Part shown: in pieces, positions 16,070 through 32,332 of the stretch | How positions within the stretch are numbered: the first letter of the stretch is position 1 | Layout: each line of letters opens with the position of its first letter | Assembly (NCBI GenBank): GCA_016842065.1 | Contig: JAEPDS010000031.1 | Location: forward strand, 1,765-44,938 | Reading direction: 5' to 3' | DNA length: 43,174 nucleotides | Source of the DNA: Candidatus Thiodiazotropha sp. 'RUGA' | GTDB lineage: Bacteria; Pseudomonadota; Gammaproteobacteria; Chromatiales; Chromatiaceae | Translations under genes and position numbers: made by a program | The notes under the pieces: generated by a model | Database searches by the model: none | What the model was told of the DNA's origin: nothing | The model's input: only the letters and a program-made list of their open reading frames with translations

Positions 16070-19000
16070 TTGAAAGATCAGAGGAATCGCAGACGCCACC
16101 CACGCTTGAAAATTGATATTCCGGTAGTCATCGAATATCAATCCGAAAGCTTTGATGATTGCCGGATGCTCAACTTTTCCCGTGGCGGCGTCTATCTCAG
16201 CTGTAGCGATACCCGACTGAATGAGGCCCTACCCCACGGCTATATTTCGGAAGCCGATCGGGAAGAGATTCTTCTCAAAGTCCCACAAGAGTCACAACAG
16301 GTACCGGCACGGGTTGTCTATTTTGATCATGGCGGCATGGGACTCTCTTTCACCAATGGCAGCGGCACCAGGCTGTTCGAGTCACTCTATTCCAACAATC
16401 AAGCATCCACCGCTGACTCGGAGGTCCAGGTTGCCGATCAACAGCACGACCCGAAACAGCAACGGGATCTGCTGGATCAGATTCGGGCACTCGCAAAACC
16501 TTATCTAGAGCACGGTTTAAACGATTTTTTCACGATTGCTCAAAAGGAGCTGCAAAAGGTCATCTTTGATACCGTCGACCCCCAGGAGCAGTCCAGTCTC
16601 TTTTTCGCGCTCAACAGTCTGGAAAAGGACCAACAGAAACTCAATCAGCAATTCATAGCGCAATTTGAACAGGGGTTTAGTGATCTGATTGAGGGCAACA
16701 CAAACGAAACCGCCTCAAGCTCAGACCACAGCCCAGAATTATCTCTGGTGGAGACCCAGGAGATCGAAACCTGGATCCTGGTCAATGATGTGGCCCGTCG
16801 GGCGGAATCCGAGGTCTCCCGACCGCTCTTCCATATCGAGACGGCCCTCAGTCATCTGTGTCACAGCAATGTACACAACGAACTCAATCCAATCGCCCCG
16901 ATCAGTCTGCTGAGCATCTTTAAAAACCTGTTGGACAGCTATCAGTTCGATGCCAAGATCATGCGCACTTTACTGATCGCCTTTCGCAGCACCCTGCTGA
17001 ATGGATTGAATCGCTTCTACGAAAACCTGTTGAAGCAGATCAATAGAGCCCACATCGATGGCCTTGAAAGCCCATCCCAGTCGGCCTGGACCATCATCAA
17101 AAGCAGCGACACCCAGTCGATCCACAACACCCCGATCGAGCATCTGAGTAAACTCAGTAACCTCCACCCGGACAGTGACGCCCAGGAACCGACCCAAGGC
17201 ATGTCGGACACTGAACGCAAGGAGGTCATAACCAGCCTGGCCTCTCTCTCAAGACTTCAGGCCGCCCCCCTGCAGCAGCAGATCGAAAACCTGATTCAGG
17301 AGGAGAGTTCAAAGCCGGTGCAACTGTCCGCTGAAGCCCGGGCGGCAATCGGCGCCGGCGAGGAGCTGGTCGCCACTCTCAGTGAAGATCCGCTGATCAC
17401 GGATCAGATTCGGCAGCTGATGGGTACGCTTAAATTTCTCATCATCGAAGCGGTACTGCAGGACACCAGCCTGCTTGAGAACAGCGACCATCCGGTAAGG
17501 CGTCTGCTCGATACGATCGAATGTCTGAAACCCTATGTCAACCGGGGAAACCAACGTTCGTTACTGCGTGACAGGGATACCCAGCAACTGAGCCAGATCA
17601 GCGAAGCCGTGGAGAGCGGCAAGTTCAGTCACGTGGATGAGGTCAGCAGCGAACTGGAACGGTTATTGGGCGAACAGCGCAGCCGTTTCGAGGCCAACCG
17701 AAAACTCTCCATTTCACGCTGCCTGAAGGATGAGAAGCTCCGACGGGCCCAGCTGACCACCTATCAGGCACTCTCAAAGACCCTACTCAACCAGACCATC
17801 TCACCGATCGTCGACAAACTGTTTCGTTTCGGCTGGGTCAATCTGATGGTACAGACGGCAGTCCTGGAAAAAGCCGATGCGAAAGGTTGGCAAGGCTATC
17901 TGCAGATCGTTGAGCTGCTGCACCGACTGTTTTCGGATTCGCCGGGAAAACACCAGCTGACCGCCAAGCAGCAACAGGCGATGATGGCGATGATTCGGAA
18001 AGGCTTCACGGACTATCCGATCTACGCCGAACAAGCCAAGTCATTTGAGGATGAATTACAACGACTGCTCGAGATCGGTGCGGAAGGCGACCAGTTCCCC
18101 GACCTGCGGATCGAAGCGAACAAAGCCTATCTTCACCACTATTTTCAAGGCATGAACATTGACCGTTCCGGCAATGGTGCAACAACGACAGACGATCAGT
18201 GGCGCCACACGGTGAACAAGATTGAGCTGGATAGCTGGCTGGTCAAACAGGATGAGAAAGGCCAGCTCAGTGTCCTCAGTCTGGCCTGGAAAAACCCGCA
18301 GACAGACCGCTATCTGCTGGTCGACGGGGATGGCTTCAAAGTACTCGATGAGACCCTGGAGGAACTGGCAGACCGCTTTGCTGATCAACGGATCAGCGTG
18401 ATGGAGTCTTCCGCCAAACCGATTGTGGAGCGCACCATCGAAACCATGCTTGCCAACAGTTACACAGACTTCAAGCAGGAATCCGAGATCGATTCGCTTA
18501 CCGGACTCTACAACCGTCGGGCATTCGAAGCGGAAGTATGCAAATACCTCCATCAGACAGAGATAGAAAGCGGCATCCTGCTGCAGATCGACCTGGACAG
18601 ATTTCAGGTGGTGAATGACCTGTGCGGATTCGAAGGTGGCGACAAGCTGTTACAGACCGTCACTGACATCCTGCTCAGCTACCTGCCGGAAGGCGGCGCT
18701 TTGGGCCGCATTGGTGACGATGAATTCTCCCTGCTGTTGACACACGAGAACCTGGAGGTCGGTTATCAGGCCGCTGAGATGTTACGTCAGACGATCGATG
18801 AGAGTGTATTTGAGTGGCAAGGGCGTATGATCCCGACCACCGCCAGTGTCGGTGTCGTGGAAATCGATGGCAGCGACGAAAAAGCGGACAAGCTGATGCA
18901 AGCCGCACTGGCCGCCTGCAACATGGCCAAGCAGGGTGGCGGTAACTGCACCCGCATCTACCTGAAGAGCGATTCAGTCTATCAGCAACGCCAGCAGCTG

Positions 19001-19786
19001 GTGGAATCGCTACCTGCCATCAAAGAGGCGTTGGCCAAAGGGCGCATGGAACTGTTTGTCCAACCCATCGTCCCGCTGCAATCCAATCAACAGGCATCGC
19101 ATCACCATGAGATCCTGCTGCGGGTGCGCAATGAGAACGGCGAACTCGAATCACCCCAGGCCTTCATCGAAGCAGCGGAGACCTATGACCTGATGCGGGA
19201 TGTGGACCGCTGGGTGGTGGAGGCCTTTTTCGAACAGCTGGAACCCTATGCCCATCAGCTCCCCGAAGGACAGAGCTTCTCCATCAACCTCTCCGGCAAA
19301 TCCCTCGGTGACCTGGATTTCAAAAGGATGCTGATCGAGCGCATCAAAGCCACCTCATTGGAGACCAAACATTTTGGTTTTGAGATCACCGAAACCGCCC
19401 TGGTAGGGGATATCAGCGATACGGCAGCGGTCATCAATGAGATTCGTGAACTCGGCTGCGCTTTCTCCCTGGACGACTTCGGCTCCGGCTACGCCTCCTT
19501 CTCCTACCTGAAGGATTTTCCGGTGGACTACGTCAAGATCGATGGGATCTTTGTGCGAGAAATACTCAACAAACCGGCCGATTACGCGATGATCAGCTCG
19601 ATAACCGAAATCGCCCACTTCATGGAGAAGCGGGTCATCGCGGAATTTGTTTCGGATGAGACAACCGCCATGGCGTTGAAGCATATGGGCGTCGATTTCG
19701 GCCAAGGCTACCACTTTGGCAAGCCTCGCCCATTGACAGAAGCCCTGAATGAGATCATCACACCAGACAACTCCACGGTACACTGA
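16070..19786 (+). CDS. PilZ - DUF1631-like - degenerate GGDEF - EAL protein
   Basis: This 1238-residue cytoplasmic protein starts at TTG 16070, the only start after an in-frame stop at 16049, with AGG ten bases before. Residues ~5-105 form a PilZ c-di-GMP-binding domain with RxxxR (RRHPR) and NxSxxG (NFSRGG). A long helical region (~120-790) looks DUF1631-like. The GGDEF domain (~808-965) has GDDEF instead of GGDEF (in GRIGDDEFSLLL, ~882), so cyclase activity is doubtful. The EAL domain (~985-1230) reads EILLRV, but NLS, EITE, DDFGSG, VKID, AEF and GQGYHF keep the metal and catalytic residues, so phosphodiesterase activity is likely. It probably degrades c-di-GMP with PilZ and GGDEF as regulatory sites (inference). 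No membrane segment is seen. Confidence 0.9.
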   Translation: MKDQRNRRRHPRLKIDIPVVIEYQSESFDDCRMLNFSRGGVYLSCSDTRLNEALPHGYISEADREEILLKVPQESQQVPARVVYFDHGGMGLSFTNGSGTRLFESLYSNNQASTADSEVQVADQQHDPKQQRDLLDQIRALAKPYLEHGLNDFFTIAQKELQKVIFDTVDPQEQSSLFFALNSLEKDQQKLNQQFIAQFEQGFSDLIEGNTNETASSSDHSPELSLVETQEIETWILVNDVARRAESEVSRPLFHIETALSHLCHSNVHNELNPIAPISLLSIFKNLLDSYQFDAKIMRTLLIAFRSTLLNGLNRFYENLLKQINRAHIDGLESPSQSAWTIIKSSDTQSIHNTPIEHLSKLSNLHPDSDAQEPTQGMSDTERKEVITSLASLSRLQAAPLQQQIENLIQEESSKPVQLSAEARAAIGAGEELVATLSEDPLITDQIRQLMGTLKFLIIEAVLQDTSLLENSDHPVRRLLDTIECLKPYVNRGNQRSLLRDRDTQQLSQISEAVESGKFSHVDEVSSELERLLGEQRSRFEANRKLSISRCLKDEKLRRAQLTTYQALSKTLLNQTISPIVDKLFRFGWVNLMVQTAVLEKADAKGWQGYLQIVELLHRLFSDSPGKHQLTAKQQQAMMAMIRKGFTDYPIYAEQAKSFEDELQRLLEIGAEGDQFPDLRIEANKAYLHHYFQGMNIDRSGNGATTTDDQWRHTVNKIELDSWLVKQDEKGQLSVLSLAWKNPQTDRYLLVDGDGFKVLDETLEELADRFADQRISVMESSAKPIVERTIETMLANSYTDFKQESEIDSLTGLYNRRAFEAEVCKYLHQTEIESGILLQIDLDRFQVVNDLCGFEGGDKLLQTVTDILLSYLPEGGALGRIGDDEFSLLLTHENLEVGYQAAEMLRQTIDESVFEWQGRMIPTTASVGVVEIDGSDEKADKLMQAALAACNMAKQGGGNCTRIYLKSDSVYQQRQQLVESLPAIKEALAKGRMELFVQPIVPLQSNQQASHHHEILLRVRNENGELESPQAFIEAAETYDLMRDVDRWVVEAFFEQLEPYAHQLPEGQSFSINLSGKSLGDLDFKRMLIERIKATSLETKHFGFEITETALVGDISDTAAVINEIRELGCAFSLDDFGSGYASFSYLKDFPVDYVKIDGIFVREILNKPADYAMISSITEIAHFMEKRVIAEFVSDETTAMALKHMGVDFGQGYHFGKPRPLTEALNEIITPDNSTVH

Positions 19787-24325: not shown

Positions 24326-24515
24326 ATATAAATTTTGTTGATCTCTTCTGGACCACCCTCTACAACTGCTCCAAATAAAATACCCCCATCCCTACCCCCC
24401 TTAGTAATTAATATTTATATAATAATTACAATAACTTAGGCAAATAAATGATTCTTCTGAGCATTAATTACCGCTCAGACTTTATACGCCCTTGTAAAAA
24501 TAAAATAAATATTAC

Positions 24516-24539
24516 TTGTACATACTGTACAACTATACT
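24516..24539 (+). promoter_or_regulatory. Palindromic operator candidate beside a -10-like hexamer
   Basis: TTGTACA-TAC-TGTACAA (24516-24532) is a perfect 7+3+7 palindrome. TATACT, a near-consensus -10, follows at 24534-24539; a weak TTACTT (24512-24517) could serve as -35 with a 16-base spacer. The palindrome would then fill the spacer, a typical place for repression. It lies 114 bp before the IscR-like ATG, so autoregulation by that protein is a natural guess. It does not match the E. coli IscR type 1 or type 2 consensus as I know them. Confidence 0.5.
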
Positions 24540-24645
24540 ATCTTTTTACTTACAAAACCTATACAAGCCCCCATCAAAAGGCACTATCACACCGAAAGAG
24601 TTGATCAATTTAAATGTAAAAACAGTAACTTATGAGGACAGACAG

Positions 24646-25089
24646 ATGAGATTAACAAGCAAAAGCCGCTACGCAATCACCGCCATGATCACTTTGGCTC
24701 TAAACCACAACAAGGGCCCCATGACACTTTTTGAAATCTCTGAAAGTCAGGGTATTTCTCTCTCATACCTGGAGCAGCTGTTCGCTTCCCTGCGCTCCAA
24801 AGGGTTGGTTAAGGGATTTCGTGGTCCTGGAGGCGGTTACGCGCTTGCGAAGTCTGCAGAGCAGATCTCAATCGCTGAAATCATCTGTGCTACCGATGAG
24901 TGGGTTGACTACACCTATGCCAATGAGAGAGACACCATTCAGCGAGAGACACAACTCAGCAGTCGCACTCTGTGGAGCAGCCTCAGCAAACAACTTTACG
25001 ATTTTGTCAGTGACATAAAACTGTCAGACCTGATCAACCGCCACACGATCCACGCATCCCATGAACAGCAAGACAAGATTGCAGCCTAA
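24646..25089 (+). CDS. IscR-like Rrf2 regulator lacking all Fe-S ligands
   Basis: The 147-residue protein aligns without gaps to E. coli IscR over its first ~120 residues: MRLTSKSRYAITAM, ISLSYLEQLFASLR (Glu43 kept) and RGPGGGYALAKS, the winged-helix DNA-binding part. IscR ligates a [2Fe-2S] cluster with Cys92, Cys98, Cys104 and His107. Here these positions are Ala, Ile, Leu and Arg, so no cluster of the known kind can bind. The only Cys is at 81. It therefore probably behaves like permanent apo-IscR or uses another signal (inference). ATG 24646 with GAGGA seven bases before is clear. No isc genes are nearby; a DUF2189 membrane gene follows on the same strand. Confidence 0.93.
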   Translation: MRLTSKSRYAITAMITLALNHNKGPMTLFEISESQGISLSYLEQLFASLRSKGLVKGFRGPGGGYALAKSAEQISIAEIICATDEWVDYTYANERDTIQRETQLSSRTLWSSLSKQLYDFVSDIKLSDLINRHTIHASHEQQDKIAA

Positions 25090-25220: not shown

Positions 25221-26000
25221 ATGTCAACACCAACTGCAGAGATGCAATTTACACAAGCTGCCACAGACCGCCTTGAGGTTAACAAAGTCGAAAGTGGCGC
25301 AGCACTTCAGTGGCTGAGTTCTGGATTCGAAGATTTCAAACGCACTCCAGCACTCAGTCTCCTCTACGGCCTGTTGTTTGCGAGCCTGACCGCCGGGGCA
25401 TTCCTGCTAGTAACGAATGTGCCCTGGTATGCAGTAGCCTATCTGACAGGTCTTGTCGTGATGGGGCCATTCATGGCATCAGGCCTCTATGCGGCGAGTC
25501 GCGATATGCAACAGGGACGCGAAGCAACCATCGATAACAGCCTGAGACTGCTCATCAAACGTTCAACCAACCTGGCGCTGTTTGCAACGCTGCTGGCGCT
25601 GGTTATGGCTGCCTGGGTACGTATTTCAGCGCTTCTGTTTGCGGTGAAATTCAGCACACTCAGTCCAAGCATCGAAGCCTACACAAGTCTGTTCAGTAGC
25701 GCAGAGGGCTGGATCACCTTGAGCTACTTCGTTGGCATCGGTTTTCTGCTGGTAACTTCAGTGTTTGTGATCAGCGCAGTCGCGATTCCGGCCATTCTGG
25801 ATAAGGATGTGGATTTCATCACCGCCATGCAGACCAGCTACCGGGCAGTCACTCACAACCCGGGGGCGATGGCTTTGTGGGCGGTGATCATCGTTGTGAT
25901 GACGGCAGTTGGTGTGATGACTGCTTTTATCGGCTTTGCTGTGCTCTTCCCGATCCTGGGTTATGCCACATGGCACAGCTATCGTTCCCTGGTGAAGTAG
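25221..26000 (+). CDS. DUF2189 integral membrane protein
   Basis: The 259-residue protein has a hydrophilic start and about six membrane helices. The features FKRTPALSLLYGLLFA, GPFMASGLYAASRDMQQG, FVISAVAIPAILDKDVDFITAM and TAFIGFAVLFPILGYATWHSYR match the DUF2189 family. Some members are encoded near cytochrome oxidase or nitrogen-oxide genes; the function is not known. GAGGA lies seven bases before the ATG. It lies 131 bp after the IscR-like gene, behind a hairpin, so it may be a target or partner of that regulator. Confidence 0.88.
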   Translation: MSTPTAEMQFTQAATDRLEVNKVESGAALQWLSSGFEDFKRTPALSLLYGLLFASLTAGAFLLVTNVPWYAVAYLTGLVVMGPFMASGLYAASRDMQQGREATIDNSLRLLIKRSTNLALFATLLALVMAAWVRISALLFAVKFSTLSPSIEAYTSLFSSAEGWITLSYFVGIGFLLVTSVFVISAVAIPAILDKDVDFITAMQTSYRAVTHNPGAMALWAVIIVVMTAVGVMTAFIGFAVLFPILGYATWHSYRSLVK

Positions 26001-26124: not shown

Positions 26125-26385
26125 ATGAAAACCGTACTCTTCGTGACCATAGTGACTTATGCCTTTTTGAGTTACAGCCAGCCCTCTGGCACGGCTAACG
26201 CCGGAGTAACCTATGACCACCAGAAGATGATGGCCGCTCACGGTTGCCCGGCATCAAAAGCCAGCAGTAACCCCCATGACAAGAGCTGGCGCTATCTTAG
26301 GGGCGACTCATCGCAGGTCAACCTGATGATGATCGATTGGCACGATAGGGGTGAAAACTCATTTGGCCCGATCAGGAACATATGA
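26125..26385 (+). CDS. Small exported protein of unknown function
   Basis: The 86-residue protein has a signal peptide (MKTVLFVTIVTYAFLSYSQP, cleaved near TANA-GV). The mature part is short, with one Cys (AHGCPASK) and several His and Met. AGAGGTG lies eight bases before ATG 26125; an upstream in-frame ATG (26035) would give an Arg-rich extension before the signal and is less likely. It overlaps the DCC-family gene by ATGA, so the two are coupled. No family recognised. Confidence 0.6.
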   Translation: MKTVLFVTIVTYAFLSYSQPSGTANAGVTYDHQKMMAAHGCPASKASSNPHDKSWRYLRGDSSQVNLMMIDWHDRGENSFGPIRNI

Positions 26386-26783
26386 GCCAACAGCAAACCC
26401 TGCCGGGCAAACTGGCAGGTCGATCTCAACGTTTACGGGTCTGGTATGATTCAGAATGCCCGCTTTGCCGAAGAGAGATCGACCTTCTGCAACGGCTGGA
26501 TAGCAAACAAACTATTCATTTCATCAAGATCGAAGCTTGCTCCACTCTGCCGATGAAGAAAGAACAGCTGTTGGAACGCCTGCATGCACAACAGCCTGAT
26601 GGTGAGATGATCTCAGGAGCCCAGGCGTTCGCTGCAATCTGGCGAAAATTACCAGGCCTGAAGATGCTGGGTTATGTTGCACAATGGAAGCCTGCTGCTA
26701 CTTTCCTGGAATGGTTGTATGGTAAATTCCTCAGGCATCGGCCAGGTATGCAACAGTGGTTGATCAGAAGGGGTATGGAGTAG
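26382..26783 (+). CDS. DCC-family (DUF393) thiol-oxidoreductase-like protein
   Basis: The 133-residue protein shows the DCC motif: VWYDSECPLCRREIDLLQRL, with a CxxC pair, then GAQAFAAIWRKLPGLKMLGY and a C-terminal LYGKFLRHR. The family is thioredoxin-like and presumed to act in thiol-disulfide exchange, but few members have been characterised. The start overlaps the preceding exported protein by ATGA. It converges with an SDR gene 47 bp away. Confidence 0.88.
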   Translation: MSQQQTLPGKLAGRSQRLRVWYDSECPLCRREIDLLQRLDSKQTIHFIKIEACSTLPMKKEQLLERLHAQQPDGEMISGAQAFAAIWRKLPGLKMLGYVAQWKPAATFLEWLYGKFLRHRPGMQQWLIRRGME

Positions 26784-26830: not shown

Positions 26831-27598
26831 TCAGGGCTCGAACGGAAGCCCCAGAAAATCGAACAACTTTCCCGAATCTTCCATCTTTAAACAGCTCATC
26901 ACTTTCAGTAACTGTTCGGCTGTGTACTGAGTTGTCTGCAATTGACCATCCGGGACGTTGGCCTGAAAAGGCGCAGACAGTTGAGTATCAGTGGTACCCG
27001 GCTGTAATCCCACAATGATCAGCTGCCGACGTTTGTACCCCAGTTCGATCGCAAAGTTCTTGATCAGCATATTCAGGGCTGCCTTACTGGCACGATAAGC
27101 GTGCCAGCCACCCAATCGATTGTCACTGATACTACCGACACGAGCAGACAATATGCCGATACGGCTGATCTGTTGATCGTTCATCCTGGGTATCAGATGT
27201 TTACACAACAACGCAGGCCCAATCGCATTTGTTTGGTAGGCATGTAACAGATGGTCTGAGGTCAAATTTTTGAAGGTTTTTTCCGGTTTGTAGTGGTGAT
27301 CATGTAAAAAACCGGTGGCAACAAAAGCGAGGTCAATGCTTCCTGGTGCTATCTGATCAATTGCCTCACTGATGCTGGATTCATCAAGAAGATTGAACTG
27401 CAGATCGATCGTCGGATTGTTCAACTCGACCAACTGAGCCGGATCTCTGGCCAGTCTTATCAGGGTGGCGTCAGGGTATTGTTTTACAACAGCCTCTGTC
27501 AGCGCCTTGCCGATACCACCGGTTGCCCCTGCGACCATAACAGTCTCGGGTGTTTTGAAAGGGACTCCTTTACCACGCGAAAAGAGAGACTCTTTCAT
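26831..27598 (-). CDS. Short-chain dehydrogenase, C-factor-like
   Basis: The 255-residue SDR has the nucleotide motif AGATGGIG (residues ~24-31), an NAIG segment, the catalytic Ser in GILSARVGSI, and YRASK with Tyr and Lys. The layout (FVATGFLHDH, GWHAYRASKAALNML, GLQPGTTDTQL) resembles CsgA/C-factor-type SDRs. The substrate is unknown. It lies 81 bp after folE on the same strand; in other marine gammaproteobacteria I recall a similar SDR beside folE and DCC genes in photolyase-linked clusters, so a pterin or reduced-cofactor role is possible. Confidence 0.85.
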   Translation of the reverse strand: MKESLFSRGKGVPFKTPETVMVAGATGGIGKALTEAVVKQYPDATLIRLARDPAQLVELNNPTIDLQFNLLDESSISEAIDQIAPGSIDLAFVATGFLHDHHYKPEKTFKNLTSDHLLHAYQTNAIGPALLCKHLIPRMNDQQISRIGILSARVGSISDNRLGGWHAYRASKAALNMLIKNFAIELGYKRRQLIIVGLQPGTTDTQLSAPFQANVPDGQLQTTQYTAEQLLKVMSCLKMEDSGKLFDFLGLPFEP

Positions 27599-27679: not shown

Positions 27680-28354
27680 TCAAGAGAGGAATTCTGCTCT
27701 GACGGCAGCATCCTGTTTGAAGCAACCGCCAAGGGCCTTGGTGGTGGTAAAGGAGTTGCTGTCCATAACGCCTCTTGCCTTCACGCAATAGTGGGTCGCC
27801 TCAATCATCACCGCGACATCCTCGGTATCCAGCAGCGTCTGCAGCGCAACCAGTATCTGCCGAGTGAGGCGCTCCTGTACCTGGGGCCGCTGTGCAAAAA
27901 AACGTACGATCCGATTGATCTTCGACAGGCCGATCAGGCTTGACGAGGGTAGATAGGCCACCTTCACCTTTCCATCGATGGTAATGAAGTGGTGTTCGCA
28001 TGTACTGGTCAGATCGATCTCCTCGACTGAGATCATCTCATCCGAGCCCATCTTGTTTTCGATCAGTGTAATCTTGGGAAAATGGCCATAGTCGAGACCG
28101 GAAAAGATCTCGTGGATATACATCTTGGCAATCCGGTGAGGTGTTTCGGTCAGACTGTCGTCTGACAGATCGAGACCGAGTGTCTGCATCACGTCGCTCA
28201 TCAGATCCCGGATACGATCGTACTTCTGATCCTGGCTCATGCCATTATCGAACATTGGGGTTTCGAGTCCATGCTCGATCAGCGCATCACGTACCAATGC
28301 CGCTTCGTCACTTATTTTTGGTTGTTTTGTAAGACGTACAGGTTTGTTGAGCAT
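27680..28354 (-). CDS. folE: GTP cyclohydrolase I
   Basis: FolE converts GTP to 7,8-dihydroneopterin triphosphate, the first step to folate and other pterins. The 224-residue protein is close to E. coli FolE along its length: [58 protein letters not shown] and HYCVKARGV. The zinc ligands (Cys and His in CEHH, Cys in HYCVKARG) are present, so it is the zinc type. The N-terminal extension has several lysines. Its upstream region contains a 22-bp palindrome 137 bp before the start. Confidence 0.97.
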
Positions 28355-28990: not shown

Positions 28991-31900
28991 CTACTTCTTT
29001 AACAGTTCCTCCAATTCCTTTGCGGGAAGCGGGCAGGTATACAGATAGCCCTGAACACTGCGACAGCCTTCTTTCTTAAGGAACTCCAGCTGTTCAATCT
29101 TTTCCACTCCTTCAGCCAGCACATCCAGTCCCAGGTTGCCTGCCAAGGCGATGATGGTGCGGGCGATGGCAACATTGTGTATGTCTTCCGGCAGATCAGA
29201 GACAAATGACTGATCAATCTTGAGTCGAGTCAACGGAAGTTGCTTGAGATAGTTCAGTGAAGAGTAACCGGTACCAAAATCGTCGATTGCAATTCTGACC
29301 CCCATGTCTCGAAAGCCATTAAGCATACGAGCGGTATCCTCAACCGAGCGCATCATGATCGATTCCGTGATTTCCAGTTCAAGGTTATACGGATCAAGCC
29401 CGGTCCTGTCCAACACCTGCCGAACCTTTTGCAGCAGATCACCCTTGTTGAACTGTTTGCCTGAGATATTCACGCTGATCGTGGTATCGGCCTCGAGAAG
29501 GCCGGCCTCCAGCCAGCCTCTCATTTGCCGGCAGGCTTGCTCGAGTATCCAGTTGCCGATGCTGATGATGATACCGGTCTCTTCAGCCAGGGGAATAAAA
29601 GTCGAAGGCGGGACGACACCCACACTGCCAGTGGTCCAACGCACCAGTGCCTCAACGCCGCAGATACTCGCTGACGGCAAGGTGTATTGCGGCTGGTAAA
29701 ACAGCACCAGTTCGTTACGCTTCAAGGCATCGTGCAGGCTTGTTTCGAGCAATACACGCTGAAAGGCCTTGTCGGTCAGTTCCTTGGTGTAATACTCGAA
29801 AGTACCGCGGCCGCGCTCTTTGGCACGGTACATCGCGGTATCGGCATTGCGAACCAGTTCATCGCCCGTGGCGCCGTGCTCCGGATAGATACTGATCCCG
29901 ATACTGGCCCCAATATAGACCGTCTGATCGTCAATTTCGAAAGGGGTTTTGAACTGCTGCAGAATTTTTCCGGCGACCAATGCCGCATTTTCATCCTGCT
30001 TGATGTCGGTAAGTATGACGGTGAATTCATCTCCCCCCATGCGGGCGACGGTATCGTCTTCGCGAAACAGTTGCTGCAGGCGCTCGCCGACAGCCTTCAA
30101 TATCCGGTCACCAAACGGGTGACCGAAGCTGTCATTGAGTTGCTTGAACTGATCCAGGTCGATAAACAGTACCGCCAGCCGGTATTTTTTGCGGTGTGCC
30201 AGGTGCATGGCCTGGGTCAAGCGGTCGGAAAACAACAGACGATTGGGGAGTGATGTCAGTGGATCATGATGCGCCAAGTAGTCCAGACGCTCTTCCGTTT
30301 CCTTCAAGGGAGAAATGTCTGAGAAAACCCCGACGTACCCGCTTACCTCACCCTCGGCGGTTTTAACCTGATTTATGGTCATAAGCTCCGGATAAAGGTC
30401 ACCATTCTTTCGCCGATTCCAGAGTTCTCCTCGCCATACACCTCTCTTTTCGAGTGCGTGGAACATTGCCTGGTAAAAAGAGAGGTCGTGTCTTCCTGAC
30501 TTGAGCAACCGGGGGTTCTTACCTAGAACTTCCTCACGTTTGTATCCTGTAATACGACAGAAGGAGGCGTTTACATCCAGGATGGTTCCATCCAAATCGG
30601 TGACGGTGACCCCTTCAGCCGTATTGGCGTATACAGTTGCCGCGATACGCAGTTGATCCTCTACTTCACGATGGTCCGTGACATCTTCTCCGACAGAGTG
30701 AAAGTCAGTAGCCACACCGCTTTCATCAAAAATTGCACGATTGGTCCAACGCTGCCAGCGGATGCTGCCATCAGACGCAATCACCCTGTGTTCGTGGCTC
30801 TGCACTGGAGCTTCAAGAGTAAGTCCGGCCAGCCCGTTTCGAATCTGTTCCCGATCACTCTCGGGAACCAGTTTGTAAAATGATCTACCTATGAGTTCAT
30901 CAGCGGTTTTATTGAAATAGTGGCAATAGGCGTCATTGACGAAGACGATTTCGCCTTTGGCTCTGAAATGGCATATCAGACCTGGCGCATCTTCTACCAG
31001 GCCACGGTAACGCGCTTCACTTTCCCTTAGTGCCATCTCCTGCTGTTTTTGAAGAGTAACGTCACGACCAATACCAAGCACGCCGATCAGTTTACCCTTT
31101 AATGAGCTGTAGACAGGTATCTTGGTCGTTTCCAGCTTTACCACTCGACCGTCCGCATAAACGCCATCCTCTTCGTTCATACGAGGCTCACCATGATCTA
31201 TTGCTGCCTTATCATATTTTCGATAGGAGTCAGCAATTTCGCTAGGATAGAGATCATAGTCAGTTTTTCCGAGGATCTCCTCTTCCGATAGCGCAAGAAA
31301 CTCCAAATACTTTTGGTTACAGGATAGATAGACACCATCCGGGTCCTTTAACCAGACCAAATCCGGAATGGTATTGAGCACAGTACGAAGCCGCTCCTCA
31401 CTCCTTTGCAGTTTCAACTCTGCGACGCGCAGGTCGGTAGTGTCCGTAGCCTGCGCAATGAACCCCAAAAGAGTGCCATCACTGTCACGCAGGGCTGTCA
31501 TTGCTGCATCAGCGTAGCGTAGTGATCCGTCTGCCGCCTGGTACACATCACTGCTCAGTACCGCTCCTTCAGTTTGTTGAGCCCATTGCAACCGGTGCTG
31601 GATCTTCTCTTTCCACTCCGGCAGGTCTCTCCAAGCCGGCGACTCCCAGAAATATTTACCGACATAGTCGGCTCGAGAGGCCCCTTGCATCTGTAATGGC
31701 AGGTCATTGATGTCCAATACAATGCCACCAGCTGAAAGGACTGCCATAAACTGAAACTGTTGATTGAAAACCGTACGCAATCGCTTTGCATTCTCCAGCA
31801 TGCTCTCTTGCAAAGGATTACGACTGGAAGCATTCCCATCTGACTCGGATCTGGCCTCTTCCCTTTCATGAACCAGCTTCGAACCCGTCTCGACGACGTT

Positions 31901-32332
31901 TTCGTTCTGCTGGGCGAGCGCTATTTTCAATACATCTATGTGACGCTCATGGAGCAGTTCGATAATTTCTTGACGAAAGACAACCCCAATGGCCAATCCC
32001 GAGTCATCCACGATAACCACATGACTGACCCGGGCTTCATCCATAATGGGAATGGCATTCGTAAGCAGCGTGTCCGGCAACAGTGTGAGAACAGGCGACG
32101 CCATGAAACCCGTCAAACCTACTCTGGATAGATCTCCCATTTCGGCCCCATTGGACAAAAGATCTTTAGGAGCAAATACACCAAGCGGAATTTGATTATC
32201 TACGACAACGAGCGATCTGATTTCCTTGTCACGCATCAATGCAAGAGCATCTGCAACACCGCATTCCGCACTAATCGCGATGCAGGTGTGGTCAGGAATG
32301 TCTGAAAGTTTTAGTGGATTCACGGTGAACAC
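28991..32332 (-). CDS. CBS-pair, four-PAS, GGDEF-EAL c-di-GMP protein
   Basis: This 1113-residue cytoplasmic protein starts at GTG 32332 (a second GTG three codons later is possible). Two CBS motifs (~1-130) may bind an adenine nucleotide. Four PAS domains follow at ~181-305, 313-430, 441-558 and 560-680. The GGDEF domain has an intact motif (ARMGGDEF, ~765) and an RxxD inhibition site (REDD) five residues before it. The EAL domain reads EALVRW (~892), VNISGK, EITES, DDFGTG, LKID, AEGVE and VQGY, all intact. Either or both activities are possible; in many such proteins the EAL prevails. No membrane segment is seen. 171 bp separate it from yicC. Confidence 0.93.
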   Translation of the reverse strand: MFTVNPLKLSDIPDHTCIAISAECGVADALALMRDKEIRSLVVVDNQIPLGVFAPKDLLSNGAEMGDLSRVGLTGFMASPVLTLLPDTLLTNAIPIMDEARVSHVVIVDDSGLAIGVVFRQEIIELLHERHIDVLKIALAQQNENVVETGSKLVHEREEARSESDGNASSRNPLQESMLENAKRLRTVFNQQFQFMAVLSAGGIVLDINDLPLQMQGASRADYVGKYFWESPAWRDLPEWKEKIQHRLQWAQQTEGAVLSSDVYQAADGSLRYADAAMTALRDSDGTLLGFIAQATDTTDLRVAELKLQRSEERLRTVLNTIPDLVWLKDPDGVYLSCNQKYLEFLALSEEEILGKTDYDLYPSEIADSYRKYDKAAIDHGEPRMNEEDGVYADGRVVKLETTKIPVYSSLKGKLIGVLGIGRDVTLQKQQEMALRESEARYRGLVEDAPGLICHFRAKGEIVFVNDAYCHYFNKTADELIGRSFYKLVPESDREQIRNGLAGLTLEAPVQSHEHRVIASDGSIRWQRWTNRAIFDESGVATDFHSVGEDVTDHREVEDQLRIAATVYANTAEGVTVTDLDGTILDVNASFCRITGYKREEVLGKNPRLLKSGRHDLSFYQAMFHALEKRGVWRGELWNRRKNGDLYPELMTINQVKTAEGEVSGYVGVFSDISPLKETEERLDYLAHHDPLTSLPNRLLFSDRLTQAMHLAHRKKYRLAVLFIDLDQFKQLNDSFGHPFGDRILKAVGERLQQLFREDDTVARMGGDEFTVILTDIKQDENAALVAGKILQQFKTPFEIDDQTVYIGASIGISIYPEHGATGDELVRNADTAMYRAKERGRGTFEYYTKELTDKAFQRVLLETSLHDALKRNELVLFYQPQYTLPSASICGVEALVRWTTGSVGVVPPSTFIPLAEETGIIISIGNWILEQACRQMRGWLEAGLLEADTTISVNISGKQFNKGDLLQKVRQVLDRTGLDPYNLELEITESIMMRSVEDTARMLNGFRDMGVRIAIDDFGTGYSSLNYLKQLPLTRLKIDQSFVSDLPEDIHNVAIARTIIALAGNLGLDVLAEGVEKIEQLEFLKKEGCRSVQGYLYTCPLPAKELEELLKK

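Follow-up and report, generated by a model that had tools for sequence, protein, structure and literature searches.

An IscR-family regulator lacking the iron-sulfur cluster ligands in Candidatus Thiodiazotropha and other genera of its family

What becomes of an IscR-type regulator once all four residues that hold its [2Fe-2S] cluster have been replaced? This question is raised by a gene at positions 24646..25089 (forward strand) of a DNA stretch from Candidatus Thiodiazotropha sp. 'RUGA', a clam-symbiont bacterium (contig JAEPDS010000031.1); the whole stretch analysed, 43,174 nucleotides in length, is referred to as the window. The ligands of IscR are missing from its product, while the residues of IscR that contact DNA are kept, and the protein is probably a DNA-binding switch without the usual sensor. 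As far as sequence comparison can tell, it most likely corresponds, in nature, to the clusterless mutants of E. coli IscR made in the laboratory.

Identity of the protein and replacement of the cluster ligands

The reading frame begins with ATG at 24646 and its stop codon ends at 25089, giving a protein of 147 residues, in agreement with the initial annotation. Residues 1-139 were aligned by phmmer without a gap to E. coli IscR (chain of 4hf0), and the ligands C92, C98, C104 and H107 were found to be A, I, L and R, exactly as first described. Position 107 of the 4hf0 chain is H, but its positions 92, 98 and 104 are A, because the chain belongs to a Cys-to-Ala mutant. The three-Cys plus His107 ligation of IscR is absent from the window protein, and so is that of the RsrR type, in which Glu8 and His12 act together with two Cys, residues 8 and 12 here being R and T. 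The conservation of the DNA-binding part, including Glu43, was borne out: in an alignment of ten relatives no substitution occurs in the recognition helix at S40, E43 and Q44 or in the wing at R59 and P61. The protein is not Cys-free, because it keeps C81, its sole Cys, which is present in all ten ligand-less proteins described below.

Among the curated models, IscR was the closest to the window protein, though the score (156.3 bits) stayed below the cut-off of the NCBIfam IscR equivalog TIGR02010 (207.55). The models for Pfam Rrf2 (PF02082; 110.9 bits, cut-off 30) and for the Rrf2 superfamily (TIGR00738; 123.3 bits, cut-off 73.3) were both passed, and that for the CymR equivalog was missed (89.1 bits, cut-off 195). 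The predicted monomer (pLDDT 81.9) has the winged-helix Rrf2 fold, and its best structure matches were IscR, CymR, RsrR and NsrR. In this model a helix begins at residue 106, with pLDDT of 52 for residues 91-100 and 73 for 101-110; in a control model of a Cys-bearing homologue (IscR2, see below), built from an equally shallow alignment and too weak as a control (mean pLDDT 71.1) to support an argument, the helix begins at 111 and the same stretches gave 50 and 48.

The source genome (4.77 Mb in 177 contigs) contains three Rrf2 proteins above the Pfam cut-off. One is a normal iscR with ligands CCCH (213 bits against TIGR02010), followed by iscS and preceded by a gene which we take, from its frame, to be cysE. 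The other, also CCCH, scored 196.8 bits, again below the cut-off, and lies beside frames that we read as a PrmB/C-like methylase and a GNAT-like protein; we use the label IscR2, coined in this analysis, for the family-specific second, Cys-bearing IscR paralogue that it represents. The check proposed at the outset, for a second, normal iscR with an isc gene elsewhere in the genome, was thus answered positively, with a Cys-bearing IscR2 in addition. The window protein is 58% identical to IscR2 and 46% to IscR of its own genome.

Distribution and residue signature

The ligand-less protein was found in four of the 22 genomes of the window genus (G000, G008, G009 and G012), the three relatives being 91-97% identical to the window protein. 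Named relatives in this identity range come from Ca. Thiodiazotropha taylori, a symbiont of Stewartia floridana and a metagenome-assembled genome of the Chromatiales. In six more genomes, belonging to two other genera, the ligands are replaced as well, by other residues. Chance or assembly error as the source of the replacement was ruled out by this recurrence in independent genomes. Searching 210 genomes of the family with a profile built from ten relatives gave at least ten ligand-less proteins in three genera, the share per genus being 4/22, 2/8 and 4/9 genomes among the matches listed. These counts are lower bounds, at most 18 first-look candidates per genome having been scored and only the best rows kept. 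The ten scored 267.6-280.9 bits, partly by construction of the profile, and IscR2 proteins followed from 263.0 bits downward. Among 369 genomes sampled across the class, the top-scoring loci outside the family, which were the only ones considered there, were all CCCH (25 distinct sequences).

A total of 119 distinct IscR-like sequences was then compared, filtered by an IscR-like start pattern that allowed G or S at position 7 and mostly chosen by likeness to the window protein. E43 is present in all 119. The combination of S7 and R107 was found in all ten ligand-less proteins and in none of the 109 other rows. The ligand pattern is CCCH in 98 sequences; the remaining 21 consist of the ten ligand-less proteins, ten IscR2 with partial loss (CSGH in six; CACH, CNYH, CSAH and CASQ in one each) and the divergent L059. 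Within the ligand-less group, C104 is kept by three members (L101, L102 and L105), and C92, C98 and H107 by none. Another 40 IscR2 sequences, mostly from unsampled genera, all carry G7 and C81, with CCCH in 39 and CNSH in one (L226); C81 is likewise found in all 55 rows bearing the IscR2 segment in the main table.

Since partial-loss patterns were seen among IscR2 copies, ligand loss recurs in the IscR2 lineage, and it reaches copies standing before Fe-S genes. In G028 an IscR2 that keeps only C92 of the ligands (L047:6711-9205, CASQ) directly precedes iscS-iscU-iscA, and in genus g62 copies of the CSGH or CSAH type, with C92 and H107 left, directly precede an iscU (ligand-poor copies L100, L104, L110-L112 and L120). 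The name iscS beside the G028 copy is supported by a family model; those of iscU and iscA are presumed from reading of the frames. As regulators of Fe-S genes, these ligand-poor IscR2 may be even less expected than the window protein.

L059, from another family of the class (G053), is a divergent IscR-like protein whose ligand loop is shortened (A, gap, N and Q) and holds no ligand Cys. Its loss is apparently independent of that in the ten.

Origin and selection

In a tree of 76 rows based on the full alignment, the ten ligand-less proteins form one clade (100/99) within IscR2, nested among the copies of genus g63. Judged from these sequences, the ligand-less proteins are derived from the IscR2 group. 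The initial designation as a paralogue of IscR is therefore right as to the family, and its precise kin is the family-specific IscR2, in which ligand loss recurs.

The gene is under constraint, less so than its IscR and IscR2 siblings: dN/dS was 0.053-0.124 for the window-type orthologues (four genomes, six pairs), compared with 0-0.008 for IscR2 and 0-0.040 for IscR. Among the four window-type orthologues position 98 is free to vary (I, V, I and A) and R107 is fixed; the residues at 92 and 104 differ across the ten. All ten reading frames are intact.

Upstream control region

The regulator gene is preceded by 634 bp of intergenic DNA, in which a 70-bp block (24499..24568) is conserved among the four genomes: 59 of its 70 columns are invariant, whereas outside the block this holds for 261 of the 658 intergenic columns, counting those with gaps. 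Within the block lies the palindrome TTGTACA-NNN-TGTACAA (24516..24532), a candidate operator whose arms are invariant in all four genomes and whose spacer differs in each. The genome contains one perfect copy and two with one mismatch, and none of a reversed control pattern. In the loose form (three mismatches) the palindrome occurs twice in the window against 0.73 expected, not rarer than chance, only the perfect copy being singular. We infer that the palindrome could be the regulator's own operator in the window genus. As an operator common to all ten genes it was rejected, being absent in the two other genera.

A different site was found before IscR2 genes. The motif CCn(A/G)(G/C)(T/C)n5A(C/G)TnGG, with the spacing of type 2 IscR sites, is present in 40 of 92 distinct IscR2 upstream stretches (those of near-identical genomes counted separately if they differed at all), located 43-63 bases before the start codon in 38 of the 40. 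It appeared in 20 of 18,400 base shuffles. Because some of these promoters had served to define the motif, and because the shuffles were of single bases, the value of 40/92 is descriptive. No such site was found before the ten ligand-less genes (0/10) or before canonical iscR (0/6). A loose type-2 consensus of E. coli was not above shuffles in 26 of 27 single promoters, the exception being L030 (5/100 shuffles).

Gene neighbourhood

In all four genomes of the window genus the order is DUF302, the regulator and DUF2189, then an SDR oxidoreductase gene and folE on the opposite strand; in G009 the locus is on two contigs, whose ends split DUF2189. The gene for the DUF2189 membrane protein (25221..26000, forward strand) is next downstream, and no match to isc or suf genes was obtained among the neighbours scanned, both as the initial annotation stated. 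DUF2189 is a candidate target: copies of at least 91% identity were found in exactly the same four of 22 genus genomes as the regulator, other matches being 47% identical at most. The same block includes a DCC1-like thiol-disulfide oxidoreductase (26382..26783, forward strand), not found in G012. On the reverse strand lie the SDR gene (26831..27598), PRK09009-like with a score below that model's cut-off, and before it an accessory GTP cyclohydrolase I gene (folE; 27680..28354); folE and SDR are also adjacent in another genus (G089). In G002 and G016, DUF302 adjoins folE (93%), and the block between them, including the regulator, is absent.

This accessory type of folE was found full-length (at least 67% identity) in 13 of 210 genomes, together with two partial matches. 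Six genomes have both this gene and the regulator, within 3 kb of each other in five and on two contigs in G009. The overlap has a hypergeometric value of 2.9e-6 with 13 folE genomes and 8.1e-6 with 15, when the partial matches are added, ignoring kinship among genomes. In G214 the genes regulator-folX-folE-folM are tightly packed and operon-like. The names folX and folM are tentative, because both fall below the model cut-offs (dihydroneopterin triphosphate epimerase, 150.4 against 152; dihydromonapterin reductase, 168.4 against 249). The order regulator-folX-folE is found also in G181, where folX (L216:9780-10215), intact in G214, is frameshifted, either by an assembly error or in reality. 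The ligand-less copies of genus g63 lie near what we take, from reading of frames, to be miaB/phoH, tldD-like, gpmI and other genes.

Proposed mode of action and alternatives

To the question of how such a protein works, the answer that we favour, with about even confidence, is that the ligand-less group represents a third paralogue of the IscR family in which the Fe-S switch was abandoned and which binds DNA constitutively, in an apo-like manner, under the control of its own abundance. A duplication within the IscR2 group would have yielded the paralogue, which would adopt a normal IscR-like dimer fold and stay in the cluster-free, apo-like DNA-binding state. Its output would be set by the amount of regulator made, through its own conserved upstream block, and not by cluster occupancy. 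The regulator would probably act on its own promoter and on the adjoining small cassette, DUF2189 in Thiodiazotropha and folX-folE in another genus (with folM in one genome). The fixed changes H107R and G7S may be adaptations of the vacated ligand region.

Several points weigh against this reading. C81 is conserved in the ligand-less proteins, and the single-Cys IscR of Rhodobacter sphaeroides is reported to bind a cluster (PMC4618611); the initial statement that the protein must be cluster-free is accordingly too strong. When the trait columns (7 and 88-109) were removed from the alignment, the four window-type rows split off on a long branch, away from the remaining six, so that the tree of Cys-less IscR called for at the outset gave a single clade with the full alignment and a split without these columns. 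The approximately unbiased (AU) test rejected neither a single clade of all ten (p 0.315) nor the union of the window type with IscR2 of its own genus (p 0.19); a single loss with later transfer and two separate losses may thus both be compatible with the trees. One loss is favoured because S7 and R107 are common to all ten. The absence of the type-2-spaced site is not special to ligand-less copies, because 52 of the 92 IscR2 stretches lack it too, including all nine of g50 (L185, L187-L194). None of the six copies from the two further genera was found to be preceded by the palindrome. Moreover, the g63 neighbours show neither folE nor DUF2189, and no single target fits all ten.

The bases of the palindrome also speak against an apo-IscR type of binding. 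According to PMC5411485, Glu43 of apo-IscR reads C7C8 at type 2 sites, and TT occupies one side of type 1 sites; in PMC9338935 the contact of Glu43 is located at -8. The CC and GG of the IscR2 site stand at -8/-7 and +7/+8 from the centre and are here equated with the bases read by Glu43. At these places the window palindrome has TT/AA on both sides, which is not the apo-IscR preference if E43 is kept for CC/GG, so that the palindrome would belong to another regulator or to a binding mode other than that of E. coli apo-IscR. The latter could point to a distinct IscR-derived subfamily, with a fixed and possibly cross-dimer R107-S7 arrangement in place of the cluster switch, an altered specificity (TT/AA instead of CC/GG) and a new job linked to the DUF2189 cassette or to an operon with accessory folE for pterin synthesis, a tentative suggestion which we hold to be possible but not likely. 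If it were true, the ligand-poor IscR2 heading isc genes would be evolutionary intermediates.

Alternatively, the regulator might sense a small molecule such as a pterin, or a protein partner, as CymR does with its thiol-lyase. The operon-like arrangement in G214, the closeness of regulator and accessory folE in five of the six genomes having both, and the overlap of their occurrence would fit this proposal, and CymR acts with a partner enzyme (PMC9338935). We consider it unlikely, since the four g63 genomes among the ten have no accessory folE, the window folE is on the other strand beyond four genes, and the regulator is absent from seven of the 13 genomes with accessory folE, among the matches listed.

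A thiol switch through C81, comparable to Staphylococcus aureus CymR and sensing something else, would account for the invariance of this residue, and S. aureus CymR is described in PMC9338935 as losing DNA binding on oxidation of a surface Cys. C81 descends, however, from IscR2, for which a cluster is to be expected, and its conservation may be structural; in the model it lies in a helix (76-83) and may not be exposed. We regard such a switch as rather improbable.

It is more doubtful that a cluster or metal is still bound through unusual ligands, C81 together with non-Cys residues. The R. sphaeroides protein offers a precedent, Asp8 is a cross-subunit ligand in NsrR (PMC5411485), and C104 is retained in three of the ten. 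Against this, position 98 drifts and positions 92 and 104 vary, as described above; the window protein has no His or Cys at any of the four positions; and its residues 8 and 12, R and T, do not offer RsrR-type ligands.

Mixed dimers with IscR or IscR2, damping the Fe-S response in the manner of a dominant partner, could form where IscR copies reside together (three matches in each of the ten genomes, among the matches listed), but with only 58% identity to IscR2 of the same genome this appears very unlikely. A decaying duplicate, foreseen initially as a refutation, might be suspected from the patchy presence (at least ten of 210 genomes), the faster evolution relative to IscR2 and the joint absence of regulator and neighbours in G002 and G016, yet the ten intact frames, dN/dS of 0.05-0.12, far below 1, the invariance of S7 and R107 and the conserved upstream block in the window genus leave this next to no probability.

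Relation to known systems

Cluster-free Rrf2 proteins such as CymR are already known; the window protein is only about 30-32% identical to CymR and scores far below the CymR model cut-off. With E. coli IscR C92A and the Cys-to-Ala chains of 4hf0 and 4hf1, it has in common the 139 ungapped residues, the helix and wing residues and A92. Unlike these laboratory variants, it is natural and kept by selection, H107 is changed to R and G7 to S, and its gene, with no isc neighbour seen, is accompanied by two Cys-bearing copies in the genome. With IscR2 of the same family it shares C81 and the DEWV segment; IscR2, in contrast, is mostly CCCH, has the type-2-spaced site in part of its promoters and in several genomes is a neighbour of iscU or iscSUA. 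R. sphaeroides IscR resembles it in lacking the usual three-Cys ligation and differs in being the first gene of an isc-suf operon and in the cluster reported for it (PMC4618611), whereas the window protein is encoded by an extra copy at a distance from isc. The members carrying the three cysteines are marked in a published tree of Rrf2 proteins (PMC9973013).

In the open-licence literature, as judged from listings, no natural IscR without all of its ligands is described, and nothing on-topic was found for Thiodiazotropha and IscR. On the sequences compared, what is new is an IscR-derived group without all or nearly all ligands, with the DNA-contact residues of IscR kept and with graded relatives. 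A clusterless IscR appears to have been made by evolution and kept in at least ten genomes, and the graded relatives remain beside it (CCCH; CACH; CNYH, CNSH, CSAH and CSGH; CASQ), some of them heading isc genes. Two questions become directly testable in this material, namely what IscR can do when no cluster is bound, and how a regulator can outlast the loss of its metal-cofactor switch.

Other observations

Accessory folE was also met in other settings. In G087 (L212), folX and accessory folE lie beside a photolyase/cryptochrome-like gene and a CarH-like regulator, both below the model cut-offs, and a role of accessory folE in a light response is possible in this genus. In G223 (L211) it lies beside a GTPase of the CobW/ZigA type, below the model cut-offs, which hints at a relation to zinc in that genus. 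In the window, the region of the regulator is flanked by two large GGDEF-EAL-like proteins, identified by frame reading only, at 16070-19786 and 28991-32332.
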